DNA of 64,000 nt from Pseudomonadota bacterium (GTDB taxonomy: Bacteria; Pseudomonadota; Gammaproteobacteria; Burkholderiales; Rhodocyclaceae). The position numbers were made by a program, and so were the translations under genes. How positions within the stretch are numbered: position 1 is the stretch's first letter; each line of letters begins with the position of its first letter. The stretch lies in NCBI GenBank assembly GCA_018262095.1, contig JAGTRW010000023.1:1-64000 (forward strand), read 5' to 3'. The notes beneath the pieces were generated by a model. The model was not told the origin of the DNA and did not search any database. It saw only the letters and a program-made list of their open reading frames with translations. Shown here one piece after another: positions 14,011-38,608 of this stretch.

Positions 14011-14142
14011 GACAAGGCAGTCCGTCGCACCGCGATTGGCGTCTACTTGTGGGGAATACAAACGTGCCCCACTCGTTGCATTCGATGTTCGGGAATACGG
14101 TAAGCGGGTGCAATCTTTGCCTTCAAGCCGTCATGAACTGAG

Positions 14143-14197
14143 CGCTTGGCAAATCAGAGGCATCCATGTACGTTCTACGGCCCCATTTTGCCAAGCG
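14143..14197. repeat. 11-bp perfect inverted repeat CGCTTGGCAAA/TTTGCCAAGCG
   Basis: Arms at 14143-14153 and 14187-14197. Confidence 0.5.
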
Positions 14198-14260
14198 AGT
14201 TATGCGGCGGCGCGACAGCCGGCGCGTTCTGAGCCGGTCAATAGCCAGTTGCGACGCCCC

Positions 14261-14440
14261 TAGGTGATTGGCCGGATGGCGTTCTCCGCCGGGTTGTTGT
14301 CGATTGCCAAGGCGCCGTCATCGACATAGCGCATCAACGCCGGCCAGCGTTTCAGGCTGTAGTCGATGGCACGCGCTAGACCGGTGCCGTCCGCGGTCTT
14401 TACACATTGCGCAATCAGCCAATCGCGTAACGCGGTCACC
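14261..14440 (-). pseudogene. IS66-family transposase C-terminal fragment
   Basis: LRDWLIAQCVKTADGTGLARAIDYSLKRWPALMRYVDDGALAIDNNPAENAIRPI matches the IS66 transposase C-terminal signature; no full ORF. Confidence 0.8.
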
Positions 14441-14670
14441 TGTTTTTCCTGATTGGGGTGGTCTTCTTCGCCCATCACCCGGTGGCATTCATGGGACTGC
14501 TTCTGTTTTGTATCGGGTTTACCGAGGCCTACAAACGCCATCAGGATCGTCTCTTCCTGAGGGAGGAATTAGTGGTTGCCTTCTTCCTTGCCCGCTCGGT
14601 GACGTTGGGGGGGCTTCAGGAATGGTGGTTAGCTTTTAGCCAGGATCGCGCGCCATTGCCAGGCTGTTGA
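14440..14670 (+). pseudogene. Membrane protein fragment, possible Na+/H+ antiporter remnant
   Basis: LFFLIGVVFFAHHPVAFMGLLLFCIGFTEAYKRHQDRLFLREELVVAFFLA...GGLQEWW abutting the IS66 fragment; family assignment from memory. Confidence 0.5.
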
Positions 14671-14986
14671 GCATCCCGTGAGGCCGCGCTTGGTGCGCAC
14701 TGACGGCGGCTTCAGCAGCTCAAGCGGTTGCTAGCCTTGGCCATCGAGCCCGCAGCTATCAAACGCAGCCCCTCTAACATCAGGGGTTCGTTGGTAACGT
14801 GCCACTGGCGCTAGCCTGGATCCTTCGGACGATCCGCTTCCGATCGTGGCGTCTCCCGGCAATCAACGAGGGAGCGACTTCTCAGCTTGTTTTCGCGACG
14901 TATACGGACGGCCACACCAAAATACAAGAAAATCAGGACAAGCATCAGAGCGAGGGCAATCCAGGGTTTATCGACGATGTGCTGAA

Positions 14987-16297
14987 TCATCGGCTACTCG
15001 CGGGAGGGCTGAATTTCACGGGGCGAAACCCAAGCGCCAGTTGCTGGTACAACTCGGGACTCAGGCGCGAGCTGACCGCTTTGGCTATCAAAGTCACCGC
15101 CATCAGACTGATGACCATCTCATGACCGTCGATCATTTCCATGACGATAATCGCCGAAGTGATGGGTGCCTGGGTTACGGCGGCCAGAAACCCGGCCATA
15201 CATAGGGCGATAATCGGAATCGCCTCGGCTGGTATTCCCAGCAACAGGGCAATATTGGAGCCAAGCGCTGCGCCCACGGCCAGCGATGGGGCGAAAATTC
15301 CCCCGGGTATCCCCGAGTAATAGCTGATGAGCGTGGCCAGAAATCGAGAAAGTGGCGCGTGCCAAGGAAGCACGACTTGCCCGGAGACGACCTGAGATGT
15401 GATCTGATATCCACTGCCATAGGAAAGACCGCCGCCCACCCAGCCAATGACCGCTATCAGCACACCGCAAAGGCCGGCGAAAGCCACCGGGTGCTTGGCG
15501 CGCCAACGCCAGACGACAAATTCCTTACATTGCTGTGGCCAGATCATCAGGCGGCTGAAAAGCCCGCCGAGCAGTCCGCACACAACCCCGGCAAGAATGA
15601 TCGGCAGGACGATGGAACGATTGAGGTTGTCGATCTTGAGATGGCCAAAATAGTTGTAATTTCCAAGCAAGGCGACGGCCACCAGACCCGACAGAATGAT
15701 CGTGCTGACCAATACGCCGCTAGTTCGAGTTTCCAGTCGGCGGCCCAACTCCTCAACGGCAAAGACAATACCGGCCAGCGGCGTATTGAATGCCGCGGCG
15801 ACACCGGCGGCGCCCCCGGCCAGAATCAGATCCTGCATGCGCAAGGCGCGCGAATGCGGAAGCCATTTGTGAACGGCGTGCATAATCGACGCCGCGACTT
15901 GAACGGAAGGGCCTTCGCGACCGGCCGAGAAGCCGCCGACCAGCGCCAAGGCGCCAAGGAATATCTTGCCGCAGGCGATGCGTAGTGAGAGCAGCGTATT
16001 GACGGCCTTTCCCTGGGCGGCCAGTCGGGTCGCGGCGATGACTTGCGGGATGCCGCTGCCCTGGGCGCCGGGAAAATAGCGCCGGGTTAGCCAGACAGTC
16101 AGCATGCCAATGGTCGGAGCCAACAGCAAGGGCATCCAGGCGCATCCAGAACACAGTACGACGAACAGCGCCAAGGCCCACTCCGCCAGTTTGGCGAAGG
16201 CGACCACCATCAGGCCGGCGAAGAGGGCGGCGAGCCAGAGCGTCATCCGAGTTCGCCAACGAAAACTACTCAATGGGCCACGAAGTCGAACCATCAC
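14987..16297 (-). CDS. ClC-family chloride channel/transporter
   Basis: GSGIPQV, GGFSAGREGPSVQ, GIPGGIFAPSLAVGAALG motifs. Confidence 0.93.
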   Translation of the reverse strand: MMVRLRGPLSSFRWRTRMTLWLAALFAGLMVVAFAKLAEWALALFVVLCSGCAWMPLLLAPTIGMLTVWLTRRYFPGAQGSGIPQVIAATRLAAQGKAVNTLLSLRIACGKIFLGALALVGGFSAGREGPSVQVAASIMHAVHKWLPHSRALRMQDLILAGGAAGVAAAFNTPLAGIVFAVEELGRRLETRTSGVLVSTIILSGLVAVALLGNYNYFGHLKIDNLNRSIVLPIILAGVVCGLLGGLFSRLMIWPQQCKEFVVWRWRAKHPVAFAGLCGVLIAVIGWVGGGLSYGSGYQITSQVVSGQVVLPWHAPLSRFLATLISYYSGIPGGIFAPSLAVGAALGSNIALLLGIPAEAIPIIALCMAGFLAAVTQAPITSAIIVMEMIDGHEMVISLMAVTLIAKAVSSRLSPELYQQLALGFRPVKFSPPASSR

Positions 16298-16330
16298 CTA
16301 ATCTCACCGACAATGGGGCACTCGTATTCA

Positions 16331-16407
16331 GTTCGCTCGCTGTGATATTTCAAATTGCTCAATCGTTCTTTCCTTGTTGCGTCAAAGCCAAATAGAGGCT
16401 GGCCTGT
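16331..16407 (-). pseudogene. Degenerate 3' fragment of the tandem lipoprotein family
   Basis: DNA resembles the 3' end of the 16553 gene (TTTGGCTTTGA..CAACAAGG..); translates to LFGFDATRKERLSNL versus YFGFDHNKDRALDQL. Confidence 0.6.
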
Positions 16408-16552
16408 CATCACTGTTTATGCTCCTCGGCTGACAATGTGCATCGCGCATTGAAAAAAAATCCACGTATCCGGTTTGTTTGGCAAAAACCCTCGACGGTC
16501 CGCGACATCGAGTCGGGAATTATTCTTTTGCACGTGTCCTGCCCGTCTTCGT

Positions 16553-16996
16553 TCAATTCGTTCGCTGCGCTTTTGCTAATTGATCAAGCGCCCGGTCCTT
16601 GTTGTGATCAAAGCCAAAGTAAAAATGCCGGCCTTTTTTCCCGACGGAACGACCGTGCCCCGCCGAACACGAAGTCATTGACCAGCGCAGTCTCCTGCTA
16701 CGATCGTCGTTGCACGAGATCTTCCCGTCCCCCCTGATCCCGCCGCAGTTCTCCGCGTCGGGAAGCTCCTTACCGCCAAGCTGACCAGTTAACGAGCACA
16801 CCGTGTTGCCCTGGCGCAACTCGAAATTGAATCGATAGTTGTCTTCCGCCGCAGGCAGAAAGATCTTGGTCTTGAACAATGGGCCATCATCATCGAATTT
16901 GGCCACGAGAACGCCATATTCATCGCCTCGACGACATGCCGTGGTGATTGACAAAGCCAGGCACAGCAATCCAACGGCAATGATATTCCTTCGCAT
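16553..16996 (-). CDS. Secreted protein, probable lipoprotein, tandem paralogue B
   Basis: Signal peptide with TAC lipobox-like end; shared CSLTG..C.GIRGDGKISCNDDRSR.LRW..TSC..GHGRS motifs. Confidence 0.65.
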   Translation of the reverse strand: MRRNIIAVGLLCLALSITTACRRGDEYGVLVAKFDDDGPLFKTKIFLPAAEDNYRFNFELRQGNTVCSLTGQLGGKELPDAENCGGIRGDGKISCNDDRSRRLRWSMTSCSAGHGRSVGKKGRHFYFGFDHNKDRALDQLAKAQRTN

Positions 16997-17196
16997 GGTT
17001 GTCCTTGCTTCACTGGTCTATTCGCGCCCACCGATCATGCCGGACTTGACAGTCATTCGTTCGAGGACTTGGAAGCGCTGCCGACAAATGGCTGGTGCAA
17101 ATGGTGACTCCTCGTACTTGAGGAGCACTCTTCCACCATTTTTCAGAAAGGCCGCCTGACGTTTGCTCAGCCAACAGAAGTTCTATCGGCACCGTT

Positions 17197-17640
17197 TTAG
17201 TCCTCATGCCGGGCCTTGCGCAGTTGATCGCGAGCCATTTCCTCGCTACCTCCAAAGCCAAAGAAAAAACCTGACTCAGCGCCCTCGTCGGAACGACCGT
17301 AACCGCCTTGACATGAAGTAAGTAGCCATTGCAGGTTCAGCGTGCGGCCATCGTTGCACGAGACTCTCCCTGTTCCACGCAAGCCATCGCAAGGCTCAAA
17401 AAAGGGAATCCTTGGCGTTGGAATTTCACCGGTCAACAGGCACACACTGTCTTCCTGGCGGAAACCGTAATGAAAATGGTATTCACCGTCTTGTGACGCG
17501 GGAATGGCGATTGACGTGACGGTCGGCATGGCAGCGGAAAAGCCGCCGACCAGAACACCTCGGGCATCTTCAGTAACACACCCCGTTGCAATCAGCGATG
17601 AGGAGAGGATCAAAGTGTTTGTCACGATCTTTTTCAACAT
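17197..17640 (-). CDS. Lipoprotein, tandem paralogue A
   Basis: Signal peptide ending SSLIATGC; CLLTG..CDGLRGTGRVSCNDGRTLNLQWLLTSCQGGYGRS. Confidence 0.7.
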   Translation of the reverse strand: MLKKIVTNTLILSSSLIATGCVTEDARGVLVGGFSAAMPTVTSIAIPASQDGEYHFHYGFRQEDSVCLLTGEIPTPRIPFFEPCDGLRGTGRVSCNDGRTLNLQWLLTSCQGGYGRSDEGAESGFFFGFGGSEEMARDQLRKARHED

Positions 17641-17747
17641 GGCAGTCCGGTCGCCCCGCACAGGATGTTAGACGTGCGAGCGCGGGCAAGCGCATCGCGT
17701 CAAGCACGGAATTTGTGTTGCTTCAACAAGCGGATCGCTCTTGACCA

Positions 17748-18320
17748 TCATTGCGAATAGATTAATTCGACCCTGCGCATTTGTCGCCGACACTCGTTCG
17801 TCGTACACGATGGCAAATGCTTCACGCTGCCGCTGCGATTGCGACGAATTTGCCGGAGTGGCACGCCGTAGGTTCGAAGCTGTTTCTCCACGGCCATAAG
17901 ACGCTCTTCCGTGATCGCCAGATTGTAGTTTCGGCTCCCCTGATCGTCTGCATGCCCGATCAGCAGCACGGTTTCCTTGCGGTCCAGTTTCAGACGATCG
18001 GCATGCAGGCGCAATTTTTCTTTCCCCGTATCGCTGACGATGGCCGAACGCAGCGCGAAAAATATACTGTTTTCCTCCGATACGGGGGCGGTCGGTTCCT
18101 TCTCTGGAGCAGAAGGGGGGATTTCTTCGGCAAGCGGCGCGGAAGGAACTGTGGTTACAGGCGGCGGTTGGTCTGATGGCATCAGGGTAAGCGGCGGAGG
18201 CGTGCTGCATCCGTAGAGCAAAAGAACAGAGGAAAGGCAGCAGGCGATTCGCCAAGCGACGTGACGCGCATCTCTGGAAGGCAGGTGCGAAGACCATGAA
18301 GCCAATTGCTTAGTTGTCAT
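17748..18320 (-). CDS. OmpA-C-like peptidoglycan-binding lipoprotein
   Basis: LLLYGC lipobox; VLLIGHADDQGSRNYNLAITEERLMAVEKQLRTYGV. Confidence 0.75.
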   Translation of the reverse strand: MTTKQLASWSSHLPSRDARHVAWRIACCLSSVLLLYGCSTPPPLTLMPSDQPPPVTTVPSAPLAEEIPPSAPEKEPTAPVSEENSIFFALRSAIVSDTGKEKLRLHADRLKLDRKETVLLIGHADDQGSRNYNLAITEERLMAVEKQLRTYGVPLRQIRRNRSGSVKHLPSCTTNECRRQMRRVELIYSQ

Positions 18321-18834
18321 CTTCGCTTTGCTGCTTGACCATATCGGCAAGCGGAATAGTGGCAAAGCCATTGCCGTTTCCATTTTCATTTCCAGGCAAA
18401 TGCCGAATCAACTCAGATAGATTTATATACAAAGTTTGCAGCGCGACACTGGGTATCGCCGCAAGTGCTTCCGGCAGAATGCCTTCCGCCGGTCCGGGCA
18501 ACGCCGCGATCGCCTTGAGTCCGTCCGGAGCAAGGTGCAGACCGACTCTGCGCTGGTCTTCATGCATGCGGCTCCTCGCCAGACAGTTATTGGTCACCAG
18601 CTTTTCAACAAGCAGGCTGCAGGTCGATTGATGAATGCCCATTCGGCTTGCCAGCTCAGTAACTCCAAGGCCTGGCGTGCGTTGAACCTCCTGCAGTATC
18701 CACATCTGTGACCCCGATCGACCGCAGCGATCTTCGACCTCCTTGAAGTAGTGGCGCATGCTTCCGTAGATCATCCGGAACTGCTGAAGAACGACCAAGG
18801 GAAGTTGGGGTTGAGAGGCCGTATGAGTAGTCAT
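18310..18834 (-). CDS. MarR-family transcriptional regulator
   Basis: Winged-helix ELASRMGIHQSTCSLLVEKLVTNNCLARSRMHEDQRRVGLHL. Confidence 0.85.
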   Translation of the reverse strand: MTTHTASQPQLPLVVLQQFRMIYGSMRHYFKEVEDRCGRSGSQMWILQEVQRTPGLGVTELASRMGIHQSTCSLLVEKLVTNNCLARSRMHEDQRRVGLHLAPDGLKAIAALPGPAEGILPEALAAIPSVALQTLYINLSELIRHLPGNENGNGNGFATIPLADMVKQQSEDDN

Positions 18835-19062
18835 TGATGTTGAACGGTTGCGTTGGCTGGAGATGTCAATTATATTGCACATAAATGTTGTATCGCCACA
18901 CATTTGGAAAAATCTTGAAAAAGATGGTCTGAAGCCTTGGATTTCATGCCTTGATCAATCGCCAATCCGGCCGGTCAGGACCGACGCGCATCGCCCGTCA
19001 GGCGCTTCGGCTGTTTTGAAGGCGTCGCTACTGCGGCGAATCTGAAAGGGACTCCGATCACT

Positions 19063-19845
19063 ATGAGCAAGCGTCCGCTGCGAATAGGCCTTTCCGCCCG
19101 CATCTACCACCCTGAAGTCGGGGCCACCGGATTGCGCTCAAAATCGCTGCAATATCTTGAGCAGTCCGTCGCGCACTGGGTCATGTCGCGCGAGGTGATG
19201 GTCTTCATGGTTCCGTCCGTTAGCGGTGACGGAATCGTTCATCGCAGCAGCATCCGCCTGTCGGATTATCCGCAATATCTGGACGGCCTGATCCTGCAGG
19301 GCGGTGCAGACATCAATCCGCAGAGTTATGGCGAAAAGGCTTTGCGTCCTGAATGGGCGGGAGACAAGGTGCGCGACGCCTACGAGATGGAGTTGCTGCA
19401 CGAGTTCATGGAAGCCGGCAAGCCGGTTCTCGGCATTTGCCGAGGCGCCCAGCTGATCAATGTCGCGCTGGGGGGAACCTTGTATCAGGACATCGCGAGT
19501 CAAATCGAAACAGCTGGAGCACACGTTCATCCGGATTATGACCGGCACAGCCACGAGATCGTCTGGGATAGCCGGTCGGGCTTGGCCAATTTATACCCAG
19601 GCGTTGGCGGCGGTGCCGTGGTCTCGATTCACCACCAGTCGATCAAGTCCCTTGGGCGCGGCTTGCGGGTCGAGGCACGCGGTGCGGCGGATGAAATCGT
19701 TGAGGCCATACGCCATGACGGGAAGCAGTATGTATTTGGCGTCCAGTGGCACCCTGAGTTTCATCCGCCCGGTAGCCCAAACCTGCTCGATTGCACCCCC
19801 ATTCTTGATGAATTTCTCAATGCCGCACGAGGTCGACGATGGTGA
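19063..19845 (+). CDS. Class I glutamine amidotransferase-like gamma-glutamyl hydrolase (peptidase C26)
   Basis: DGLILQGGADINPQSYGE, GKPVLGICRGAQLINVALGGTLYQD, FGVQWHPE. Confidence 0.9.
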   Translation: MSKRPLRIGLSARIYHPEVGATGLRSKSLQYLEQSVAHWVMSREVMVFMVPSVSGDGIVHRSSIRLSDYPQYLDGLILQGGADINPQSYGEKALRPEWAGDKVRDAYEMELLHEFMEAGKPVLGICRGAQLINVALGGTLYQDIASQIETAGAHVHPDYDRHSHEIVWDSRSGLANLYPGVGGGAVVSIHHQSIKSLGRGLRVEARGAADEIVEAIRHDGKQYVFGVQWHPEFHPPGSPNLLDCTPILDEFLNAARGRRW

Positions 19846-19918
19846 AATGGCGTTTTATCCCCATCGTCCCATGTCTTTCGAGGGCTTCGATAGCGGCCGC
19901 AATCAAGCCAGCAAGTGA

Positions 19919-21229
19919 TTGGCGGCGGGTGGAGATTCGCGACAAGCACGAGTCTTCGCCTTGTTGAGCGAAGGTATTTTGCTGGCCAGGTCAGGCTGGG
20001 AGGCTATTCAGGAGCGCCTGTTCTTTCTGCCGCCATTTCCCGACCAGTTGGACTCACTGGCCCTCTTTAGCCTGCTGTTGGTCATCGGACTGCTGGTCGG
20101 CGAGTGGTTGCGCGCTCACCTCGGCTGGCCCAAAGTCATCGGTTATGTGCTCGCGGGGACGCTCTTCGGACCGTCGTTTCTGGGTTGGATCAGTATCGAA
20201 GCGCTGGCCCAGATCCGCCCGGTTGCCGATGCCGCGCTCGGCTTGCTGATGCTCGAAATCGGGCGGCGTCTCAATCTGCGCTGGCTGTTTCACAACAAGG
20301 ATCTTTTGCGAGCGACGTTTGGCGACATCGCGCTCTCTTTCCTCTTCATCTTCTTTTTCGCATACCTGGTCGTCGGACTGACGCCGGCCTGGGCCGCCGC
20401 CGCGGCCGCCGTGACCATGGCCTCGGCACCGGCCGTCGTGCTGATCACGGTCGAGGAGGCCAGCGCACAAGGACAGGTCACCGAGCGGATAATCTTGCAC
20501 ACCGCGTTAGGCTCCGCGGCAGCGTTTATCGTTTTCGCCATTGTGCTGGGCGTGGTGCATGCCGAAAACAGCCATGACTGGCTCAACGCAGTCGTTCATC
20601 CGCTGTGGGTCGGCATTGGTGCCCAGGCGATCGCCTGGCTGATCGCGCGCCTCGCGCTGCTGGTGGCCAATCTCTTGCCGAAGAAATCGCTGGCCCAGGT
20701 GTTTACCCTGGTGGCGACAGCCCTGCTTGCCGTCGGCGTCGCCCGCATGTTGGCGGTTCCCGTTTTTCTCACGCTGTTCATGATGGGCGCCATGCTCGCG
20801 CTGATCGATACCAATAAATCGCTGAGCTATACGAATCTGCCCGACGGCCACTGGCTGTTGGCCATCATTCTCTTCGTCGTCGTCGGCGCGTCGCTGCCGT
20901 GGCAGGACTTCACCTGGCTGGTCGCGGCTCAGGCGCTCGGCCTGCTGGTTGTTCGCGCGCTGGCCAAAATCGCCGCCCAGGCATGGGCGGGTGGCAACCT
21001 GCCGCTGGTCAAGCGACTGCTGGTCGGTGTCGGAATTCAGCCCTTGTCGGCAACCGCCGTGTTCATGGCCTATGAACTTGCCGGGCTCTACCCGGAAATC
21101 GGTCGCTCGGCGCTGACTCTGCCGCTATTTGCTGCGGCGATCATGGATCTTGCCGGGCCGGCGCTCTGCCGTCTTGCACTGGTCAGGGCTGGCGAGACGA
21201 AAAAGGGCAGCAACGGAGGTATCGTATGA
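19919..21229 (+). CDS. CPA2-type cation:proton antiporter, membrane domain only
   Basis: Multi-TM; LGWPKVIGYVLAGTLFGPS; ends at about 436 aa without a TrkA-N/RCK domain. Confidence 0.85.
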   Translation: MAAGGDSRQARVFALLSEGILLARSGWEAIQERLFFLPPFPDQLDSLALFSLLLVIGLLVGEWLRAHLGWPKVIGYVLAGTLFGPSFLGWISIEALAQIRPVADAALGLLMLEIGRRLNLRWLFHNKDLLRATFGDIALSFLFIFFFAYLVVGLTPAWAAAAAAVTMASAPAVVLITVEEASAQGQVTERIILHTALGSAAAFIVFAIVLGVVHAENSHDWLNAVVHPLWVGIGAQAIAWLIARLALLVANLLPKKSLAQVFTLVATALLAVGVARMLAVPVFLTLFMMGAMLALIDTNKSLSYTNLPDGHWLLAIILFVVVGASLPWQDFTWLVAAQALGLLVVRALAKIAAQAWAGGNLPLVKRLLVGVGIQPLSATAVFMAYELAGLYPEIGRSALTLPLFAAAIMDLAGPALCRLALVRAGETKKGSNGGIV

Positions 21230-22380
21230 GCGAATCATTGACCGAGTTCAAGCATAGTCAGCCGCTGAGCCTGGGCGTCGAGCTTGAATTGCAACTGCTT
21301 TCGCAGCGCGATTACGATTTGACGCGCGGCGCCACAGATCTCCTTGGTAGCATGAAATACGATGGTCGATTCGGTGAAATCAAGCTCGAGATCACCGAGA
21401 GCATGATCGAGGTCAGCACGCTGGCGCGTACCACGGCTGACGGAATTGCCAGTGATCTGGAGGGCTTGCGGCAAACATTGGTCAGCCAGTGCGCACAGAA
21501 CAATATCGCAATTTGCGGGGGCGGCACCCACCCCTTTCATTCTTGGCCGGAACGTCGAATTTGTCCCAGCGAGCGCTTCGACGCGTTTTACGACCGCTAT
21601 GGCTACCTGGCCAAACAATTCACTGTTTTCGGCCAGCATATCCATGTTGGCTGCACCTCGGCCGACCAGGCGATCTGGTTGACGCAGGCGCTTGGCCCCT
21701 ATGTCCCGATTTTTATCGCCCTGTCGGCGGCGTCCCCATTCGTCGACGGGGTCGATACCTTTTTTCAATCGGCGCGGCTCAACGCTGTTTCGGCCTTCCC
21801 GCTCAGCGGTCAGTGCCCCGAACTCAACGACTGGGCGGATTTCGTCGAGCACTTTTCCTTCCTCAAATCGTGCGGCATCGTCACCAGCATCAAGGATCTC
21901 TACTGGGACATCCGTCCCAAACCCGAATTCGGCACGGTTGAAATTCGCGTCTGCGATACCCCGCTGACGGTCGGATTGGCGACGGCACTCGCCGCCCTGG
22001 CGCAATGCCTGTCGCGTTTTCTGCTGCGCACGAGACCGGAGTTCAATACCCGTCAGCAACTGTATGTCGCCCGCTACAACAAGTTCCAGGCCTGCCGCTA
22101 TGGTTTTGATGCGATGCTCTCCGACCCCGTTCGGCGTCAGCAGATTCCACTCAAGGAGGTTCTCGTCGAATTGCTTGACCTGATTTCAGAGGACGCGGAG
22201 GAACTCGGATGTACCGCATGGCTTGATCAGATCAAGGATGCCGTCGACAACAAGACGAGCGACGCTAATTGGCTCAGGGGACGCCATGCTATTCACAAGG
22301 GACTGAATGATGTCGTCCGCGAGTCGGCGCAGCGCTTTGCCAATATGTTCAACATGGCTGCGGAGGATGAAAAACGATGA
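21226..22380 (+). CDS. YbdK-like carboxylate-amine ligase (GCS2 family)
   Basis: LGVELELQLLSQRDYDL, IKLEITESMIEVST, GTHPFHSW, FGQHIHVGC. Confidence 0.9.
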   Translation: MSESLTEFKHSQPLSLGVELELQLLSQRDYDLTRGATDLLGSMKYDGRFGEIKLEITESMIEVSTLARTTADGIASDLEGLRQTLVSQCAQNNIAICGGGTHPFHSWPERRICPSERFDAFYDRYGYLAKQFTVFGQHIHVGCTSADQAIWLTQALGPYVPIFIALSAASPFVDGVDTFFQSARLNAVSAFPLSGQCPELNDWADFVEHFSFLKSCGIVTSIKDLYWDIRPKPEFGTVEIRVCDTPLTVGLATALAALAQCLSRFLLRTRPEFNTRQQLYVARYNKFQACRYGFDAMLSDPVRRQQIPLKEVLVELLDLISEDAEELGCTAWLDQIKDAVDNKTSDANWLRGRHAIHKGLNDVVRESAQRFANMFNMAAEDEKR

Positions 22381-23645
22381 AATACGCGCTGATTCCACTT
22401 CTGCTTTCGCTGATGCTGTCACCGTCTCCGCTTCGAGCGGCCGAGAATTGCACGATCGGATCGGCGAGAAAGAGCGAACAAAGTCCCGGGCCGTGGATCG
22501 ATCAGAACAACTGGCTCGATCCGGAAAACCTGCGCTTCAGCCTGTCGGCGGCCGGCCGCTTCATGCCTCTTGTCACGATAAAGAGCCGTATTGCACCGCA
22601 GAACTTCAAGTCAGCGCCAAAACAGCTCGATCTTGAGAAAATGATGGCGATCGACCCGCTTGATCGAGAGACTCGCGATGTTGGCTTTTTGCTCGATACG
22701 CGCCTCTATGCAGACGGGTTCATTGTTCTGCGCAACGGTCGGCTACTGAGCGAGCAGTACTGGCACGGAATATCACCTAAACAGCCGCGCTTGTTGCTCG
22801 GTGCGACTCGGCCTATCCTTTCCTTGCTGGGAGCCATGGCCGTGGCGCAGGGGAAGTTCGCGCCCGACAAGTCGGTCATCCGCTACATTCCTTCGCTGAC
22901 GGAGCAGACGGGGTTGCGCAAACTCTCGATCCAGCGGTTGATTGACGCGAACAGCCGATTCGAGTGGACGGCACAAGAAATCAACGAGTGGCAAATGGCC
23001 GGCGGATGGAAGCCTGGAATTGCGGTCAGCGGCATTCGAGCATGGCTCAACCATCCTGGTCGTTGGGAAAGAGGCATGACCGATGCGGCCCCTAGTTTGC
23101 TTGATACCGGTCCCGATGGTGATCTCCTCACATGGGCGCTGTCCGAAAGTTATCGTGAGCCACTGGCCCAGATATTTTGCGACAACATTCTCGCCAAGCT
23201 TCGTCCTGAAAATCCGGCATTTTGGCTGACCGATCCGCAGGGAACCGAGCTGACCGGCGGCTTGGCGCTCTCTCTGCGCGATTTCGCGCGTTTCGGGCAA
23301 ATGCTCCTTGAGGCGCGTGTTAGCGGAAATCGCAGCAGGATTCCGAGCTGGTTCATCGAGACACTGACCACCTCGAACGGACCCAGAAAAACTAATTCTC
23401 CGGAGCTGTTTGGGCTGAGCAAGGGGAGTGAGGCGCGCTATGGTTTTGTCCATCTCGGCGGAACGCCAAACCGCGTCGCCTTGCTTGGGCCCTATGGCAA
23501 CAGCCTCTATATCGATTTCGATCGCCGTCTGGTGATCGCTCTGTTTGCGGCTTATCCGAAAAGCAATAGCCCGGCCATGCTGGCAACGCTTGAACAAATA
23601 TGGGATCAGGTGGGTCCAGCAACTCAGCCAGACAACAAACGCTGA
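22377..23645 (+). CDS. Beta-lactamase/class C-fold protein, probable pseudoenzyme, secreted
   Basis: Signal peptide; GLALSLRDFARFGQMLLE typical of the fold; expected SxxK position reads GATR. Confidence 0.75.
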   Translation: MKYALIPLLLSLMLSPSPLRAAENCTIGSARKSEQSPGPWIDQNNWLDPENLRFSLSAAGRFMPLVTIKSRIAPQNFKSAPKQLDLEKMMAIDPLDRETRDVGFLLDTRLYADGFIVLRNGRLLSEQYWHGISPKQPRLLLGATRPILSLLGAMAVAQGKFAPDKSVIRYIPSLTEQTGLRKLSIQRLIDANSRFEWTAQEINEWQMAGGWKPGIAVSGIRAWLNHPGRWERGMTDAAPSLLDTGPDGDLLTWALSESYREPLAQIFCDNILAKLRPENPAFWLTDPQGTELTGGLALSLRDFARFGQMLLEARVSGNRSRIPSWFIETLTTSNGPRKTNSPELFGLSKGSEARYGFVHLGGTPNRVALLGPYGNSLYIDFDRRLVIALFAAYPKSNSPAMLATLEQIWDQVGPATQPDNKR

Positions 23646-24518
23646 GTGTTAAATCGGTGATGACCGGCCCGGCTCGGTGCGCTTGGACGGCGCCAGCTCC
23701 GTAGCGATCCTTTAATCAGCTTTCTGACTTTGCTGTGCAGGCTGCCCCCTATTAGCTGGATAATTTCCGCATTTACAGTGCTTGGTACAAAGACAAAACA
23801 AACCAAGCCGCCACCGCCGAATTCGCAGGTCAGCTTACAAAATGCTGCGAAAGAGGCTAGTTGACAGTTAGCACTTTGACCAGACTTCTATAAACGACAG
23901 CTAATCGGCACACTGCGGCCCGAGACCCAAGGTCGGCTCCAGCCGACGACCGGAGCGACTGGAGGCAGAATCGAGCGGCAGGTTTCAGGCGCTCAACGTG
24001 CGTAGTATTTCGCGGTCGTCTGGCGGAGCCTGGCCGCATTCGTCCTACCTCAACTTCTATTCAAGCAATCATCCTTGGTGCATTTTCACTGAAGGTCGCG
24101 CCCCGATCTTCCTCGCAAATGCCACCCTCAATCGCAGGAAAACCGAACCAAATACGCCATATCCTCTTGACGCCAATTTTCACGACCTGTCCAATATAGT
24201 TTCCGCAAAGGCTCCTTGCCCCGCTCCATCGCGGAGCGAAAAAGCGTTGCGATCGTTACTCACCCTTGAGTTCAGCCGATCCCGAATCGGCTTGCGTGAC
24301 CAATGGCAGTGCGTTGCTGTTCCCCCTGGTTCTTGGTGCGCCTGCGCCCTTTGTTTCGTCGTCGCACGGCTTGGCCGGCGGCGGCAATCACCTGACCGGC
24401 GCGACATTGACCGTTGCCCCGGCTCGCAACGAGATGCTTCTCCCTGGGCATCAGGCCGGGCAAGCGCGCGGGGCCTTGTCAAGCGCCGTGATGCACGAAG
24501 AGGTGGTGCGAAGTGACG

Positions 24519-24677
24519 AGCAGATCGAAGGCCTGACTTTCGAGCGATGTGGAATCAGCCCCGCCCATCGGCGGCGGCTACATTACCCCTGCAATACGCT
24601 GCGGCGGTGCCGACCGGCACCTGCATCGCAAGTTCTGACGGGTGAGCGGATCGAAGGCCAGACCTTCGATGAGTGTA
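24519..24677. repeat. Imperfect direct repeat GAGC(A/G)GATCGAAGGCC(T/A)GA(C/-)TTTCGA
   Basis: Two copies near 24519 and 24643. Confidence 0.45.
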
Positions 24678-24700
24678 GCGGGCCTTGAGCCCTTCCGAGC

Positions 24701-24975
24701 GGTGCGGTCTTGAACCGCACCAGCATTGTGCCGCCACGGCCGGACCGTGGCCCGCCGGCCGATCCCGTCATCGGATCATTCCGACGTGTGCGAGGCATCC
24801 CTCTTCGACCCTGGGGCAATGGTCCCCGCGCGTAGTGTGCCCACAGGTACGGCGCGCGGCACCAGTAGCTGGTGCAACGCGGGCGAGCAGTAAACCAATT
24901 GCACAAACGGGAGTGGTGTCCCGGTGCCTTTTACAGTCCTGCCTGGTCGAGGCCAGACAGGCGGCAAGAAACACT
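24701..24975. other. Cluster of closely spaced inverted repeats, possible structured element
   Basis: GGTGCGGT-cttga-ACCGCACC, GCCACGG-ccgga-CCGTGGC, GCACCAG-tag-CTGGTGC, CGGGA-gtggtg-TCCCG, CCTGcCTGG-tcgagg-CCAGaCAGG. Confidence 0.4.
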
Positions 24976-25058
24976 CACCGAATCATTGTCACCGCGCAGG
25001 ACCCGCAGAGCCGAAGGTACCCGACGATTGATAAACCTTGGCGGATCAAGAGAGAAGC

Positions 25059-25390
25059 TCATGTCCGGGCGAAACGAGGCGCGCCAAGCGTGATCTCGAC
25101 GATGATTTCAAGCATCTGTGCCAGCGCAATCGCGATGGCTCGTTTGCTGCGCAGCACGATCGCGAAAGCATCTTGACCTTACTGGCCAACCAGCTTGAGG
25201 AAGATGGCTTTCGCCATTTACGTGCCACTGGCGTGCGCTCAAAGCATGTCGAGCATTTGGTGGAGCGCTGGCACGCGGAAGGAATCAGCGCCGGAACGTT
25301 CAAGAACAGGATGTTGGCCTTGCGTTGGCTGGCCGAGAAGATCGACAAGCGGAACATCGTTGCTCGCGATAACGCGGCTTATGGCCTCGG
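25059..25390 (+). pseudogene. Frameshifted phage integrase fragment (N-terminal SAM-like domain)
   Basis: MSGRNEARQA then, in another frame, RDLDDDFKHLCQRNRDGSFAAQHDRESILTLLANQLEEDGFRHLRATGVRSKHVEHLVERWHAEGISAGTFKNRMLALRWLAEKIDK. Confidence 0.65.
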
Positions 25391-25494
25391 CCATCATAGA
25401 CCTTGCGATCGACCGCCAAACCGTCGCGGAGCGCCGGCTTGGCGTGGCGGATGGCAACATCGCTCAAAGCATCAACAAGCTTTTTGGGCATGGG
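25380..25494 (-). pseudogene. Possible tyrosine integrase (DUF4102-like) N-terminal remnant
   Basis: MPKKLVDALSDVAIRHAKPALRDGLAVDRKVYDGRG resembles the LTDTAIRNAKP...DGGGL start of P4-type integrases; sits just beyond the tRNA-Ser 3' end. Confidence 0.4.
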
Positions 25495-25507
25495 GATACT
25501 CCTGAAA

Positions 25508-31209: not shown

Positions 31210-32325
31210 TTAGCGTCGCCGCTGGCGCCGGAAATTGTCCATGAAGCCTGCCAGTTCCTCGACTGCGGCGAGCGTCATGCCGTTGTAGATCGAAGCACGA
31301 ACGCCGCCGATCGCGCGGTGCCCGGCAAGTCCCGAAAAACCTGCGGCCAGCGCTGCGTCAAGGAAGAACTGGTCGCCTTCAGGCGTGCCGAGATTGAACG
31401 CCACATTCATCAGCGAGCGATCGCTGGCGCGCGCGCGGCCACGATAAAAGCCGTCGGAATCGTCGAGCAGACGGTAGAGGACGTCGGCCTTGGCACGATT
31501 GATCGCATCCATTCGCGCGAGGCCGCCGATCTCGTCACGCAGCCAGCGCGTCACCAGCAGCACCACGTAAATGGCGAAAACCGGCGGCGTGTTGTAGTTC
31601 GAATGCGCCTGCGCCTGGACGCGATAGTCGAGAAATCCGGGCAGATCGGTCGGCACGCGCTGCAGCAACTCGTCGCGCATCAGTACCACGGTGACGCCGG
31701 CCGGACCGATGTTCTTCTGCGCGTGCGCATAGATGAACGAGTAGCGCTCGGCGCAACACGGCCGCGAGAGAAAGTCGGACGACATGTCGCAGACGCGCGG
31801 AACGTCGTCGCGGCCGAGTACGCGGTGAAACTGCACGCCCTCGACCGTCTCGTTGGAGACGTAATGCAGGTAGGGCGCCTGTCCCGACAGTTCCAGCTCG
31901 TCGTCGCCGGGCAAGCGCGTAAAGCTGCCCGATTTTCCGTCAGACTCGCCGCTCCACGCGACACGCACCGGCCCTTCGCGCTGCGCCGACGGAATCGACT
32001 TGCCGCTCCAATAGCCGGTATGCAGATAGTCCGCCGGATGCTCGCTGGCGCGCAGCAGCGCCATCGGCAGCATCGAGAACTGTTGCGTCGCGCCGCCCTG
32101 CAAGAGCAGCACGTGATAGCTGTCGGGCAGGCCGAGCAGCGCACGGATATTGGCTTCCAGCTCGTTGACGACGGCCGCGAACCAGTCCGAGCGGTGGCTG
32201 ATGCCGAGCACCGAGAGGCCGGTTCCGGGAACCTCGATAATCGCCTGCTGCGCCTGCTGCAGCACGCTCTCAGGCAATACGCCGGGGCCGCCGGAAAAAT
32301 TGAGGCGGTTTTTCTGATTGATCAT
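31210..32325 (-). CDS. serC: Phosphoserine aminotransferase
   Basis: NFSGGPGVLPESVL, QGGATQQFSMLPM, AHAQKNIGPAGVTVV. Confidence 0.93.
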   Translation of the reverse strand: MINQKNRLNFSGGPGVLPESVLQQAQQAIIEVPGTGLSVLGISHRSDWFAAVVNELEANIRALLGLPDSYHVLLLQGGATQQFSMLPMALLRASEHPADYLHTGYWSGKSIPSAQREGPVRVAWSGESDGKSGSFTRLPGDDELELSGQAPYLHYVSNETVEGVQFHRVLGRDDVPRVCDMSSDFLSRPCCAERYSFIYAHAQKNIGPAGVTVVLMRDELLQRVPTDLPGFLDYRVQAQAHSNYNTPPVFAIYVVLLVTRWLRDEIGGLARMDAINRAKADVLYRLLDDSDGFYRGRARASDRSLMNVAFNLGTPEGDQFFLDAALAAGFSGLAGHRAIGGVRASIYNGMTLAAVEELAGFMDNFRRQRRR

Positions 32326-33530
32326 GTTGTCGTAGTCAGGCGGAAAAGATAGTCGCGGAAGGCGTCACGGACCTTCTGCATGTGGTGCTGCTTGTACGGG
32401 AACATCGCTTCGGTATCCATCGCATGCACCACCATCGCATGGTCGATTTCAAAAACCAGCAGTTGACCATCGGCCGTCTGCGCGCAGTCGATGCATACGT
32501 AATCGAGTCCGCTGCGCTCATAAATCGCCTGCAGCGCCTGCGCGTGGCGCTGCGCGAAGTCGTCGAAGCCGGCCATGAACGAAGCCTCGTCCTCGCGCTT
32601 CCACGATTCCTCGTACATCCCGGCGTTGAGGTAATGGATCATCCAGTGCGCTGAGACGCCCATGTGGCAGGCAAAGGGGACGCCGTCGATCAAGGCCACG
32701 CGCATCTTGCGGTAGAAGCCGTCAGCGCTGCGGTAGTCGATGAAGCGTGATAGGAAAAAATCGAGCGCATCGACGCGCGCCAGATAATCGGCGAGCGACG
32801 CGCTGTCGACGATGCGGTCCAGGCCGTGGCCGCCGTGCGAACCGACCGGGCGCAGGATCACCGGGAAATCGCAATCGGCAAAGCGTTCGGCAAGGCCCGC
32901 TTGGCCTGCCGCGACCGACAGCAGTTGCGCGCGAGAGGCGCGCAGCGTCGGCGGGATGAGCACGCCCGGCGCGTCACTGAGCAAGGCGCTGGCCGCCTCG
33001 CGCCCGACCGAAGGGATATGCTGCGGCGCGTTGATCACTGGTTTGGGCCAATCGTGCAGCAGCGATTCGAGCGCAATCAACAGCTCGCGGTTGTCGTCGG
33101 CCTCGCTGACCGCCACCAGCAGCGCGTCGTGCTTAGGGATAGGCAGCGCCAGCGGATCGCCGGGCGAAACGTAGTAGAAGATCAGATCGATGTCGCTGTC
33201 TTCGAGCAGGCAGTCGAGCGGCGTATTGGCCGACAGGTCGCCGGCGACCATCAGCATCAGCAGGCGCAAGCGCGCCGGCTGCCGCGCAGCGGGAAGGTGG
33301 TAGATGCGCTGCGCTTCGAGCGCCTGCCCCTGAACGGCCAGCCCCATCTCGCGCTGGCCAAGGCTGAGCATGGCCTGCGAGAGGTTCATCCAGAGGTTGG
33401 CATCATCCGGGCGCTGCTGCGCCAGCGCCAGCAGCTGCTGGCCGTAAGGCAAGAGATCGTCGCCGGCGATGCTCAGGCGCAGAAAAGGCGCCAGTCCGAC
33501 GAAGGGCATGTCGGCTTGAGTCGAGGTCAT
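32322..33530 (-). CDS. TPR-like plus ATP-grasp domain protein
   Basis: N-terminal DDANLWMNLSQAMLSLGQREMGLAVQGQALE (TPR-like); FPVILRPVGSHGGHGLDRI and QLLVFEIDHAMVVH (ATP-grasp-like); overlaps serC by 4 nt. Confidence 0.75.
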   Translation of the reverse strand: MTSTQADMPFVGLAPFLRLSIAGDDLLPYGQQLLALAQQRPDDANLWMNLSQAMLSLGQREMGLAVQGQALEAQRIYHLPAARQPARLRLLMLMVAGDLSANTPLDCLLEDSDIDLIFYYVSPGDPLALPIPKHDALLVAVSEADDNRELLIALESLLHDWPKPVINAPQHIPSVGREAASALLSDAPGVLIPPTLRASRAQLLSVAAGQAGLAERFADCDFPVILRPVGSHGGHGLDRIVDSASLADYLARVDALDFFLSRFIDYRSADGFYRKMRVALIDGVPFACHMGVSAHWMIHYLNAGMYEESWKREDEASFMAGFDDFAQRHAQALQAIYERSGLDYVCIDCAQTADGQLLVFEIDHAMVVHAMDTEAMFPYKQHHMQKVRDAFRDYLFRLTTTT

Positions 33531-33765
33531 CAGAGAATTCCAGTCAGGGTGAAACCTATCCGAGGCGCCAGGGCCCCAGCAAGCCCTGCATATTACGAGT
33601 TTCGCCCGGGGCCGCAAAGCACTGCCCGGGGTTCAGCAATCGCCAAGAGGAATGGATTGCCAGGACGGCGAGTCAGTTGAGATATCGTTGGCGACCTGCC
33701 GGAATTATCCAACTGAAGAACAGCTCGTGCCCCAGAATTGCGGGGCGAACCGGACTGACGCCACG

Positions 33766-36700
33766 TCAGTCACCGCCAGTCAATAGGTCATGCAACGTCA
33801 ACCGTAGCGCCGCAATGTTTGAAGACACGCGTGATTTATAGGCTACGACCGCATCGTGATCAACGTCCCAGAAGGTGTTATCGGGCAACTCCTTTCCAAA
33901 TACATCAAGCAGGAGCGAACGGAACTTTCCAGACGTTTCAGAACCGGTTTCTCTTTGTTCCGAGAAGGATACCTGTTCGGCGCTGGTCAATGCGCAGAGT
34001 AGAGGATGAAGCCGCGCCGAGTGTACCCGCCGATAGCGCTGAATGGTTTGAATGGTACGATCCATCGGACGATCGCCTAAAACCTCGTCGCCGATCGAAA
34101 GCGTTTCGTCATCCGTCCACCGCGCTAATGGAAAGGCGTCAATGAGCCAATCGCCAAGATGAGTCGTGCGCTGACTCCCTTTGCCATAGAGCAGACTGTC
34201 CTCCTCATATCGAGCGAACCAGTGATCCAGCCGACCAATCACCAGGCGGAGCCGATCTACAGGAATTTGCGAGCGATATTGCGTACCGAAAATACCAATC
34301 CGGTGCGGAATTCTGTCTATTAGTCGAATCAGTTCGTCGGTAAGCAGCGGGGCAAACAGGCTGTTGCCTATACCAAGAACCAGCAGGTCATAATCGCCAT
34401 CGGGAACATGCCACGGCGACATAAACGCATGGGTTACCTCGGCATCGGCGGGCAGCACTGAGTGAATCAGATGGTAACCAAGCCGATCTCCGAAATTGCC
34501 CACATTCGCACAGGAAAGGACAAGCACTTTCTTTGCTCGCTCGCGCGGGGGCGTACCCGGTTCGACTAGAAAAAGCGCCTGGTTCTGGTCAATTCGATCC
34601 GCGCGACGACAGAACAGGCCGGCACTCTGGAATGTGCAGTCCAGTTCGTTGAGCGAAAGATCGTTAACCCAACCCAGAGCTCGCCGGTCCAGGTGACCCG
34701 TCCAGTCGACCGGACAATAGCTCAAGATTGCCGGTTTGCCGATCTCTCGCAACTGCTGCAGAAATTTGGCAGGCTCATAGAGATACTCAAGGACACCGAG
34801 CATCGTGATGCGATCGCATTCTGCGGCAGCTGCAGGCAACGGCTCAGCATTTAAATCGCAGACAATCGTTCGGGCATCACGCGCCACGACGTCACAAGGG
34901 ACATAGCTACAGGTTTTTGGCAAAAACCCCTCAAGGGCCATGGCACCACAACCGATGTCGAACACACGCGCACCGGCCGGGATGAATTGCGAGACCAATT
35001 TGGCTCGCGCATTCCAGGCCGGCTCAAGCTGCTCTCGATCAGACCAACGAAGGACGTCCGTTCGCTGTTCGACGATAACTCGTTTGCGACGCATCGATTC
35101 ATCGAGAGGTGTTGCCGAAAGCACCTCGGGCGCATAGAGTTCGCACAGCGCGGCACCTACCGCCAAAATGGCGCCTTGCCAATCGCCCAAGGACTGCTGC
35201 CGGAAAAGTCGCATCGTTGGATACCACGGCGAATCGGTGCGACCGATCATCCAACGCCAGTCTGGCACGTATGGGATCAGTGTCCAAACGGGTCGTCCCA
35301 GTGCGCCGGCCAAATGGGCAGGCGCCGAGTCGACGGTGATCAACAAATCCAAATTTTCGATAAGGGCAGCGGCATCGGCAAAGTCATTGATCAATGGCGA
35401 CGCATCGATTAGTTCGAGGCGCGACGTTGAATTCTTGATATCGCGCGCGCGATCCCCAATCTGTAAACTCACAAATTGCGCAGGAACGTCCGCCAGAGAA
35501 TCAAACTGATCCAGGGGAATTGACCGATTCCAGTCGTTGTCATGCGTCGACCGGCCAGCCCAGACCAGTCCGATGCGAGGGAGATTGCCTTTCCCTGAAG
35601 CTTGTTCATCAAGCCATTTTCGCCATATCTCAACCTTGCCTGGATTGCTAACGACGTAAGGAACATCGGCGGGCAGCGTAGCGAGCATCGTGGCAAAGCG
35701 ATGAGGGAGGCTTAGGTAAAAGGCCCAATAGTCGAAAACTTCGTCCGGCCCAATATCTGCGGACAGAACGCGATCGACACCCTCAATGGTGGACAGCAGC
35801 GGCGCAAGCGCGGGCGTAGTGCGTAGCCAGACGGTCGCCCCCATCGACTTGAGTTGCTGCGCATAGCGAGCGAACTGGATTTGATCGCCCAAGCCCTGCT
35901 CGGGCTGCACGACGATGACCTTGCCGGGCAATGATTCGCCGGCCCACATCGGCTTGCCGTAATCCGGGATCAAGATGCGTTGATAGCTTCGTCGATCAGG
36001 AGAAAAACGCCATTCGTATTCGTGCCATCCCTCCGAAAAGCACCCTTCTCTTAGCAATGAAATACCCAGAAGATAATGAGCATCGGCGTTGCTTGGCTGT
36101 ATAACAAGAGCTTGGCGCAAACACTCGGCGGACTCCCGATAACTGCCGGCAGACATCAGAGCGCTGGCTCGAGCGACGAGAGTCGCCGATAACTCAGCCG
36201 GCGAATTTGAACTCGAAACAAAAGCAAGTTCTCGATTCGCCTCATCCAGACGGCCCTGTCGCATCAACAGCATATGCAAATTGATATGCGTCTTCGGGTC
36301 GCTTGGGCAAATATCTAGCGAACGCCGATAACACTGCTCTGCCGCATCGGTTTGCCCCAACCCCGAAAGGACATTGCCGAGGTTGCAGTAGGCCACATGA
36401 TGCTCCGGTTGCCGCGTCAGCACCTGTCGAAACGACTTCTCCGCGTCGGAAAACCGCATTTGTTCGAGCTGCGTGACGCCCAGCGTATTCAATGCGTCCA
36501 AGTAATCAGGATCGATCTGACAAGCGCTGAGCGCGGCTTCTTCCGCATCGCGCAATCGGTGTTGGGCGGTTAACACCACCGCCAGGCTATTTAAAAATGT
36601 CGGGTGCCGATTGGCGTCAATCGCTCGGCGAATCAGCCGCTCGGCTTCGGCCAGATTGCCTCTGGCATGCTGTATCGCCCCCGACAGATGCAAGGCATCG

Positions 36701-36876
36701 GCATGTTCAGGCTGTTGATCAAGCAGGGACTGATAAATCTTGTCTGCCTCGTCAAGTTGACCAGACACATGCAATTCCATTGCGCGATGAAGCGCTTCGG
36801 CGAAGGCCTGGTCGATTTCTTTGGCACGAGCGGAATTGCTTGTCACTGCGGCATGTTTTCGTTGTTTCTTGCTCAT
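33766..36876 (-). CDS. Multimodular TPR / GT9-like glycosyltransferase / methyltransferase / polysaccharide pyruvyltransferase-like protein
   Basis: Multiple TPRs; LLITVDSAPAHLAGALGRPVWTLIPYVPDWRW; ARVFDIGCGAMALEGF...MLGVLEYLYEP; VLVLSCANVGNFGDRLGYHLIHSVL. Confidence 0.85.
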   Translation of the reverse strand: MSKKQRKHAAVTSNSARAKEIDQAFAEALHRAMELHVSGQLDEADKIYQSLLDQQPEHADALHLSGAIQHARGNLAEAERLIRRAIDANRHPTFLNSLAVVLTAQHRLRDAEEAALSACQIDPDYLDALNTLGVTQLEQMRFSDAEKSFRQVLTRQPEHHVAYCNLGNVLSGLGQTDAAEQCYRRSLDICPSDPKTHINLHMLLMRQGRLDEANRELAFVSSSNSPAELSATLVARASALMSAGSYRESAECLRQALVIQPSNADAHYLLGISLLREGCFSEGWHEYEWRFSPDRRSYQRILIPDYGKPMWAGESLPGKVIVVQPEQGLGDQIQFARYAQQLKSMGATVWLRTTPALAPLLSTIEGVDRVLSADIGPDEVFDYWAFYLSLPHRFATMLATLPADVPYVVSNPGKVEIWRKWLDEQASGKGNLPRIGLVWAGRSTHDNDWNRSIPLDQFDSLADVPAQFVSLQIGDRARDIKNSTSRLELIDASPLINDFADAAALIENLDLLITVDSAPAHLAGALGRPVWTLIPYVPDWRWMIGRTDSPWYPTMRLFRQQSLGDWQGAILAVGAALCELYAPEVLSATPLDESMRRKRVIVEQRTDVLRWSDREQLEPAWNARAKLVSQFIPAGARVFDIGCGAMALEGFLPKTCSYVPCDVVARDARTIVCDLNAEPLPAAAAECDRITMLGVLEYLYEPAKFLQQLREIGKPAILSYCPVDWTGHLDRRALGWVNDLSLNELDCTFQSAGLFCRRADRIDQNQALFLVEPGTPPRERAKKVLVLSCANVGNFGDRLGYHLIHSVLPADAEVTHAFMSPWHVPDGDYDLLVLGIGNSLFAPLLTDELIRLIDRIPHRIGIFGTQYRSQIPVDRLRLVIGRLDHWFARYEEDSLLYGKGSQRTTHLGDWLIDAFPLARWTDDETLSIGDEVLGDRPMDRTIQTIQRYRRVHSARLHPLLCALTSAEQVSFSEQRETGSETSGKFRSLLLDVFGKELPDNTFWDVDHDAVVAYKSRVSSNIAALRLTLHDLLTGGD

Positions 36877-37064: not shown

Positions 37065-37091
37065 TAAAGTTTCGGTTGAGCGGGTCGTAAA
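37065..37091 (+). promoter_or_regulatory. Sigma-28 (FliA) promoter of fliC
   Basis: TAAAGTTT-N11-GTCGTAAA, close to TAAAGTTT-N11-GCCGATAA. Confidence 0.8.
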
Positions 37092-37192: not shown

Positions 37193-38608
37193 ATGACCCA
37201 AGTAATCATGACCAACGTGGCGTCGCTCAATTCGCAACGTCAACTCAACAAGTCGCAAGCTTCGCTTAACCAATCGCTCGAGCGCCTCTCTTCGGGCCTG
37301 CGCATCAACAGCGCCAAGGACGACGCCGCTGGCCTGGCGATCTCGCAACGGATGACTTCGCAGATTTCCGGCATGAACGTCGCGACGCGCAACGCCAACG
37401 ACGGCATTTCGCTGGCGCAGACGGCCGAAGGCACGCTCTCGACAATCAGCGACAACCTGCAGCGCATGCGCGAACTGTCGGTGCAATCGGCCAACGCCAG
37501 CAACAGCTCGACCGACCGCACCGCGATCCAGCAGGAAATCACGCAGCTTTCCAGCGAAATCGACCGCGTCGCGCAACAAACCGATTTCAACGGCACCAAG
37601 CTCCTGGACGGCAGCTTCAGCGCGCAAGACTTCCAGGTTGGCGCCAACGTCGGCCAGACCATTACCGTATCCAGCATCGCCAGCGCACGGACCAGCGCGC
37701 TCGGCCAATACCAGGGGTTCTCAAGCAGCACCGCACTCGCCGCGACGGCCACCGATACGGCTGCCGCAAAGACCATCTCGGTTGGCGGTAACACCTTCAG
37801 CTATAACGTTGCCACCGACGCCAAGGCGATCTCCGCCGCGATCAACTCGTCAGGCATCGCCGGCTTGACCGCTACTGCCAGCGCGACCACCGTTGCGAGC
37901 GTGGCCACCACGACGGCCACCACGACGGCTGGTACCGCCAGCTTCGTGCTCAACAACATCACCATCAATGTTAACGCGGTAGTTGGCAGCGCCTCGGCCA
38001 ACAAGGCCACTGCGCTCGCAGCAATCAACGCCCAGTCGTCAGCCACCGGCGTAGTTGCATCCGACGACGGCACCGGGCTGAAACTCACGGCAAACGACGG
38101 GCGTAACATCACGATGAGCGCCATCACGCTGGGGACTGCCGTAGCGACCACCCTCGCCGACTTTGGTCTGGCCGGTGCGGCTACGACGGGCAGCACGGTC
38201 AACATGAACTACAAGGCCCCGTCGGGAGTCACCGGCTCGATGACTTTCACCGGCGCTTTTGCTCCTGGTGCTCAGGCCATTGCCGCAACCGGCACGTCAA
38301 TCGCCGGCCTCGACGTCACCACGGTTGCCGGTGCTAACAAGGCCATCGACTCGATCGACGCCGCGCTGGCCAGCGTCAATAGCTCGAAAGCCAACCTCGG
38401 TGCGATTCAGAACCGCTTCACCTCGGTCGTCGCCAACCTGCAATCGTCGTCGGAAAATCTGTCTGCTTCGCGCAGCCGGATTCAGGATGCCGACTTTGCC
38501 GCAGAAACGGCTGCCATGTCCAAGGCCAACATTCTGCAACAAGCCGGTACGGCGATGCTGGCCCAAGCCAACTCGGCACCGCAGAACGTTCTTTCGCTGC
38601 TCAAGTAA
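37193..38608 (+). CDS. fliC: Flagellin
   Basis: Conserved N-terminus (LERLSSGLRINSAKDDAAGLAIS) and C-terminus (FAAETAAMSKANILQQAGTAMLAQANSAPQNVLSLLK). Confidence 0.96.
   Translation: MTQVIMTNVASLNSQRQLNKSQASLNQSLERLSSGLRINSAKDDAAGLAISQRMTSQISGMNVATRNANDGISLAQTAEGTLSTISDNLQRMRELSVQSANASNSSTDRTAIQQEITQLSSEIDRVAQQTDFNGTKLLDGSFSAQDFQVGANVGQTITVSSIASARTSALGQYQGFSSSTALAATATDTAAAKTISVGGNTFSYNVATDAKAISAAINSSGIAGLTATASATTVASVATTTATTTAGTASFVLNNITINVNAVVGSASANKATALAAINAQSSATGVVASDDGTGLKLTANDGRNITMSAITLGTAVATTLADFGLAGAATTGSTVNMNYKAPSGVTGSMTFTGAFAPGAQAIAATGTSIAGLDVTTVAGANKAIDSIDAALASVNSSKANLGAIQNRFTSVVANLQSSSENLSASRSRIQDADFAAETAAMSKANILQQAGTAMLAQANSAPQNVLSLLK

Follow-up and report, generated by a model that had tools for sequence, protein, structure and literature searches.

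The window analyzed here, a 64,000-nucleotide stretch of DNA from a Rhodocyclaceae genome, raises the question of what a multi-module protein encoded next to a flagellin gene does. The protein is encoded by a single open frame at 33766..36876 on the minus strand, which starts with ATG, has no internal stops, and specifies 1036 aa, with extent and strand as claimed in the original prediction. TPR, glycosyltransferase (GT), methyltransferase-like (MT), and pyruvyltransferase-like (PvT) modules follow one another in the predicted order, and the peptides quoted for them are located at aa 516 (GT), 639 and 693 (MT), and 783-807 (PvT). The gene fliC lies at 37193..38608 on the plus strand and encodes the proposed acceptor (Pfam Flagellin_N, 2e-46; Flagellin_C, 1.4e-26); the identities of FliC, FliD, and FliS are all confirmed by Pfam. 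The annotated fliC frame begins at 37124, and the likely flagellin start, MTQVIMTN, is codon 24, at 37193. The gap between the two divergent genes is therefore 316 bp, close to the ca. 320 bp claimed. A sigma-28-type fliC promoter, TAAAGTTT-N11-GTCGTAAA, is found at 37065..37091 on the plus strand with one mismatch to TAAAGTTT-N11-GCCGWWAA. It is the sole site with fewer than three mismatches in the window, and a scan of the 316-bp gap found no sigma-28 site on the strand of the fusion gene, a point against the reading given next. We favor, with moderate confidence, the reading that the fusion protein is a cytoplasmic FlmG-like flagellin O-glycosyltransferase carrying fused methyl and pyruvyl tailoring modules, its activity and acceptor being deduced from the features described below.

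The TPR module (aa 1-290; 36007..36876, minus strand) is the candidate flagellin-binding part. It matches Pfam TPR families with E-values down to 4e-26, in line with the N-terminal TPRs predicted, and its PDB matches are the TPR parts of OGT and SPINDLY and designed TPRs. The GT module (aa 291-590; 35107..36006, minus strand) contains EQGLGD at aa 326 and DSAPAHLAGALG at aa 516, and is conserved across a 32-sequence alignment. It scores 28.4 bits against PF01075 (Glyco_transf_9), for which the cut-off is 22. Its AlphaFold2 model, built on 32 relatives, has a pLDDT of 91.1, and the best PDB matches by Foldseek are the GT9 structure 3tov (E 2.6e-9) and heptosyltransferase II WaaF, 1psw (E 1.6e-8). 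As the PF01075 score is above the cut-off and the fold is that of GT9/WaaF, the module is of GT9 type, not GT41. It had been described as SPINDLY/GT9-like; Pfam and Foldseek uphold the GT9 part, whereas the likeness to SPINDLY is confined to the TPRs, and we rejected a SPINDLY/GT41 identity for the GT. PF13844, the GT41 catalytic domain, is absent among the Pfam families and fold matches listed for the fusion protein.

Among the closest known systems is FlmG of Caulobacter crescentus, a 596-aa protein composed of TPRs and a GT-B domain, of which the TPR part binds flagellin; FlmG is required and sufficient for flagellin modification with pseudaminic acid (PMC7591256). The fusion protein shares with FlmG the N-terminal TPRs followed by a GT-B domain, the cytoplasmic type, and a gene position near flagellin. 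It is homologous to an FlmG-like 603-aa protein encoded beside Phenylobacterium flagellins (24% identity, 585 columns, E 7e-30). In contrast, the GT is the last domain of FlmG, whose donor is pseudaminic acid, whereas the fusion protein adds two modules in a genome (97.7% complete) with no match to the NeuB family, and its GT is of the GT9/heptosyltransferase type, at 24-28% identity. TibC and other GT9 protein heptosyltransferases have a GT9-like fold, and TibC also acts on a protein acceptor, an autotransporter, but TibC is devoid of TPRs and tailoring modules and its structural similarity to the fusion GT is weak in Foldseek. The Ser/Thr-rich center of FliC had been offered as support for glycosylation. 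At 28% Ser/Thr it is ordinary for the genus, in which long flagellins have 24-30%, and we discarded this argument. The predicted link to flagellin is instead backed by position, namely by the replacement of genes in the slot beside fliC and by parallel fusions there, and flagellin is accordingly spoken of as the proposed acceptor.

The slot is bordered on the side away from fliC by a gene for an ATP-grasp-like (RimK-type) protein (32322..33617, minus strand; weak rimK_fam match), followed by a serC-type phosphoserine transaminase gene (31210..32325, minus strand; NCBIfam PRK12462, 615 bits). The former, whose product is TPR-like as well as ATP-grasp-like, overlaps serC by 4 bp; the pair occurs together in several members of the genus and borders a variable slot in two. 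One of them, G027, has the same flanks, i.e., the serC/ATP-grasp block (77% DNA identity; ATP-grasp-like protein 72% identical and in the same place) and fliC. Its slot holds pseB, pseC, pseG, and pseI (NCBIfam equivalogs above cut-off), a gene for a 656-aa TPR protein related to the TPR-GTs, and further genes. The gene set of either genome may have replaced that of the other. The slot content varies among G000, G027, G006, G001, G002, G004, G005, G014, and G018, so that the conserved fliC-side position carries variable sugar-modification genes in the manner of a glycosylation island. In other members of the genus it contains TPR-GT9, TPR-GT41, GT2, or other glycosyltransferase genes, or is empty; true TPR-GT41 genes (PF13844) are near fliC in G002 and G018. 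Aside from the slot, two further members of the genus, G016 and G024 (L034, L035), encode by sequence reading a TPR-GT9 protein that ends in an FkbM-like methyltransferase; neither gene adjoins one for flagellin.

Related fusions recur near flagellin genes. G006, of the same genus, encodes an 888-aa TPR-GT9-PS_pyruv_trans fusion (L060:2642-5308, plus strand), which is divergent from fliC and matches PF04230 above the cut-off (E 8.8e-9). A CheR-type methyltransferase gene follows 38 bp on. Both genes are missing from G001, which is otherwise collinear with G006 (249 bp vs 3.7 kb). The G006 pair thus resembles the window gene in slot, in orientation relative to fliC, and in module set; it differs in that the pyruvyltransferase belongs to another, Pfam-recognized subfamily, and the methyltransferase is of another family and on a separate gene. 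Because the two sets are made of different parts, the combination of glycosyl-, methyl-, and pyruvyltransferase functions next to fliC appears, as judged from these sequences, to have arisen on two or more occasions. In G085 and G036, members of a different family in the order, a gene for a TPR-GT9-PvT-like fusion comes after motA-motB and faces a flagellar cluster (fliK..fliS-fliD-flaG-fliC-flgL-flgK) with flagellins of ca. 700 aa; the gene names there are based on sequence reading and gene order, and on Pfam for the flagellins only.

A scan for the C-terminal half of the fusion protein in 84,980 species genomes led to six loci. This pattern scan was not exhaustive, as it recovered one of the three G793 copies, and it revealed no other genome with all four modules in one protein. 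Matches to the C-terminal half occur in five of 399 sampled genomes of the window's order and in three of 399 in a phylum sample, the window's own genome included in each. Among plasmid records, none encoding the MT-PvT part was found. In alphaproteobacterial genomes, MT-PvT is a separate protein of ca. 450 aa, with three copies in G793 and one in G794 (L016, L017, L094, L095). Pairwise identity among these proteins is 45-59%, that to the window protein is 49-52%, and they contain the same MT-PvT pair (ca. 50% identity over 440 aa). They differ from it in being encoded by a separate gene, which adjoins a TPR-GT gene in one of four cases and is not near flagellin genes. The adjoining case is on C19 of G793, where the gene downstream of MT-PvT is a codirectional TPR-GT9 gene, which amounts to a split window gene with the order swapped; two of the three MT-PvT genes of G793 are located among housekeeping genes, which counts against our favored reading. 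Phenylobacterium deserti encodes PvT alone, as do three alphaproteobacterial-type assemblies. Flagellin was not found in the latter three, so the PvT module itself is not flagellin-specific. In G605 (L051:513-1667, L052:880-2073), the gene after PvT encodes a 384-aa protein of unknown family, similar to a 397-aa protein encoded nearby.

These distributions bear on whether the target of the fusion protein is instead a lipid-linked glycan or another protein, secreted or on the cell surface, with the adjacency to fliC being incidental. MT-PvT and PvT genes in assemblies where flagellin was not found would fit such a target, and so would three more TPR-GT9 proteins encoded at other loci of the window genome, one of which (L099:4453-6958, contig C33) lies directly after the gene for a Ser-rich EF-hand protein. 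Against it, the fliC slot of the genus repeatedly holds TPR-GT and sugar-modification genes, including the G006 fusion and the G027 pseudaminic-acid island, and we consider this alternative unlikely. The Ser-rich EF-hand protein on C33 is a possible non-flagellar acceptor for the TPR-GT9 class.

The two C-terminal modules decide whether the putative flagellin O-glycosyltransferase also tailors its product. The MT module (aa 591-782; 34531..35106, minus strand) is class I SAM-dependent methyltransferase-like and has an intact SAM motif I, FDIGCGAM, at aa 639-646. Its match to Methyltransf_23 is below the cut-off of 27 both in the whole fusion protein (19.7 bits) and in the cut-out domain (23.6 bits, 4.9e-5). 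All five relatives match this family (best 2.4e-8), and a close relative is above the cut-off with 28.0. The PvT module (aa 783-1036 and stop; 33766..34530, minus strand) is assigned by fold and motifs as a GT-B-fold domain. It contains, in order, NFGD (794-797), R889, RLH (955-957), and K984, which are invariant or nearly so in nine relatives, one of them having Asp in place of the first Asn.

The AlphaFold2 model of the PvT module (254 aa), built on nine sequences, has a pLDDT of 89.7 and a pTM of 0.89. Its top PDB match by Foldseek is 6x1l (E 5e-5, TM 0.48), the fifth is yeast Pvg1p (5ax7), with GT-B epimerases in between, and four of the five best matches in a viral library are annotated as polysaccharide pyruvyl transferases. 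The structure 6x1l is that of KP1_0663, i.e., WbbZ (PMC4237132), which is a PEP-dependent pyruvyltransferase in vitro; NxGD, RxxxS/T, and His are motifs shared by pyruvyltransferases (PMC10629545). The PvT module resembles WbbZ of Klebsiella O1 in size (ca. 255-260 aa), in its GT-B-like fold, and in its NxGD, Arg, and RxH-type motifs. It differs in that WbbZ is free-standing and serves O-antigen synthesis, the identity is 17% (structural alignment, 243 columns of 254/260), and the PvT module departs from RxxxS/T by having Asp four residues after R889. For CsaB, R148, H308, and K328 are critical for PEP binding and R306 is also indicated (PMC10435577). R889, R955, H957, and K984 are plausible counterparts of CsaB R148, R306, H308, and K328, respectively, matched by their order in the sequence. 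PF04230 (PS_pyruv_trans) has no match in the fusion protein or in any of the nine relatives at E<=10, nor in a search of the whole window genome. The PvT alignment, used as a sequence profile, gave no match in the PDB, and hhalign of the PvT family against a real PF04230 protein alignment aligned just 25 columns, at the RLH motif, which is not significant. The module is therefore named pyruvyltransferase-like and not assigned to PF04230, and its predicted fold and motifs suggest this function. The pyruvyltransferase-like reading, originally made from sequence alone, survives structure prediction and motif checks; as for the domain parsing of the C-terminal half, AlphaFold fold and motifs of the PvT module came through, whereas Pfam gave no match for PvT and a match below cut-off for MT.

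Whether the two modules are active is a separate matter. In G085/G036 (L041/L042), the PvT-like domain forming the last 240 aa has lost NxGD and RxH and, judging by these motifs, may be inactive, as a pseudoenzyme, or altered in function; PvT activity hence cannot be assumed everywhere. This loss in a flagellar cluster would agree with an alternative in which TPR-GT9 glycosylates flagellin with a plain sugar only and the two C-terminal modules are non-catalytic remnants for scaffolding or acceptor recognition, and so would the degenerate MT half of the G605 relative and the below-cut-off Pfam score of the window MT. However, SAM motif I, NFGD, R889, RLH, and K984 are intact in the window protein, and the non-degenerate relatives keep them with no or almost no change; we give this alternative a low probability. 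It is quite improbable that the C-terminal module acts as a GT-B-fold glycosyltransferase making a di- or trisaccharide, and not as a pyruvyltransferase: the fold is shared, many GT-B epimerase and glycosyltransferase matches (SenB) have higher TM values (0.55-0.58), and Pfam support for a pyruvyltransferase is lacking, but WbbZ has the best E-value, Pvg1p is in the top five, viral pyruvyl transferases make up most of the best matches in that library, the pyruvyltransferase motifs are kept, and the parallel G006 protein has a Pfam-recognized PS_pyruv_trans domain.

If the fusion protein is a tailoring flagellin O-glycosyltransferase, its modules would act in the following order. The TPR module would capture flagellin before export, and the GT9 module would put a sugar on Ser/Thr. 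The donor would not be a nonulosonic acid such as pseudaminic acid, because the genome is without NeuB; a nucleotide sugar of heptose or hexose type is one candidate. The SAM-dependent module would then O-methylate the added sugar or a second site, and the C-terminal module would use PEP to attach a pyruvate ketal, so that the filament would bear a negatively charged cap. Flagellin glycans with methyl groups are known, and Geobacillus islands encode methyltransferases (PMC5109656). Pyruvylation confers negative charge and resembles sialylation (PMC4872226). The fused enzyme could thereby supply an acidic filament glycan in the absence of a nonulosonic-acid pathway, and the pyruvylated sugar could functionally replace an acidic nonulosonic acid. 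More tentatively, the gene may be a single-gene flagellin glycosylation island, in which one acquired polypeptide binds, glycosylates, methylates, and pyruvate-caps flagellin in place of a multi-gene pseudaminic-acid pathway.

Precedents exist for FlmG-type TPR-GT proteins and for methylated flagellin glycans; new here, within the open-access literature, is the fused TPR-GT9-MT-PvT architecture. A search of that literature found neither a pyruvylated flagellin nor a TPR-GT-pyruvyltransferase fusion with or without MT, and our preferred reading, if true, predicts flagellin pyruvylation, for which the same literature holds no description. It would also mean that the TPR glycosyltransferases that modify flagellin act as a modular scaffold next to fliC, with tailoring enzymes exchanged as cassettes, and that cells lacking the nonulosonic-acid pathway can give their filament an anionic glycan cheaply, from PEP.

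The composition of the fusion gene bears on its origin. Its GC3 is 0.58 as a whole and even across the modules (0.54-0.62), whereas the neighbors (29 to 63 kb) mostly have 0.75-0.86. From this anomaly the gene looks horizontally acquired, and the uniformly low GC3 favors arrival as a single unit and speaks against modules joined in the assembly. It would have entered the serC/ATP-grasp-fliC slot, which in G027 holds the pseudaminic-acid island. We did not adopt an operon with ATP-grasp and serC, as these have a GC3 of 0.80-0.81 vs 0.58 and are present without the fusion gene in other genomes. Elsewhere in the window, 2391-8113 and 13423-25505 also have lower GC3 (0.55-0.76), perhaps as a second acquired region; these stretches encode a Na/Ca exchanger, Mrp-type antiporter subunits, a CLC channel, a Na/H exchanger, and GCS2.
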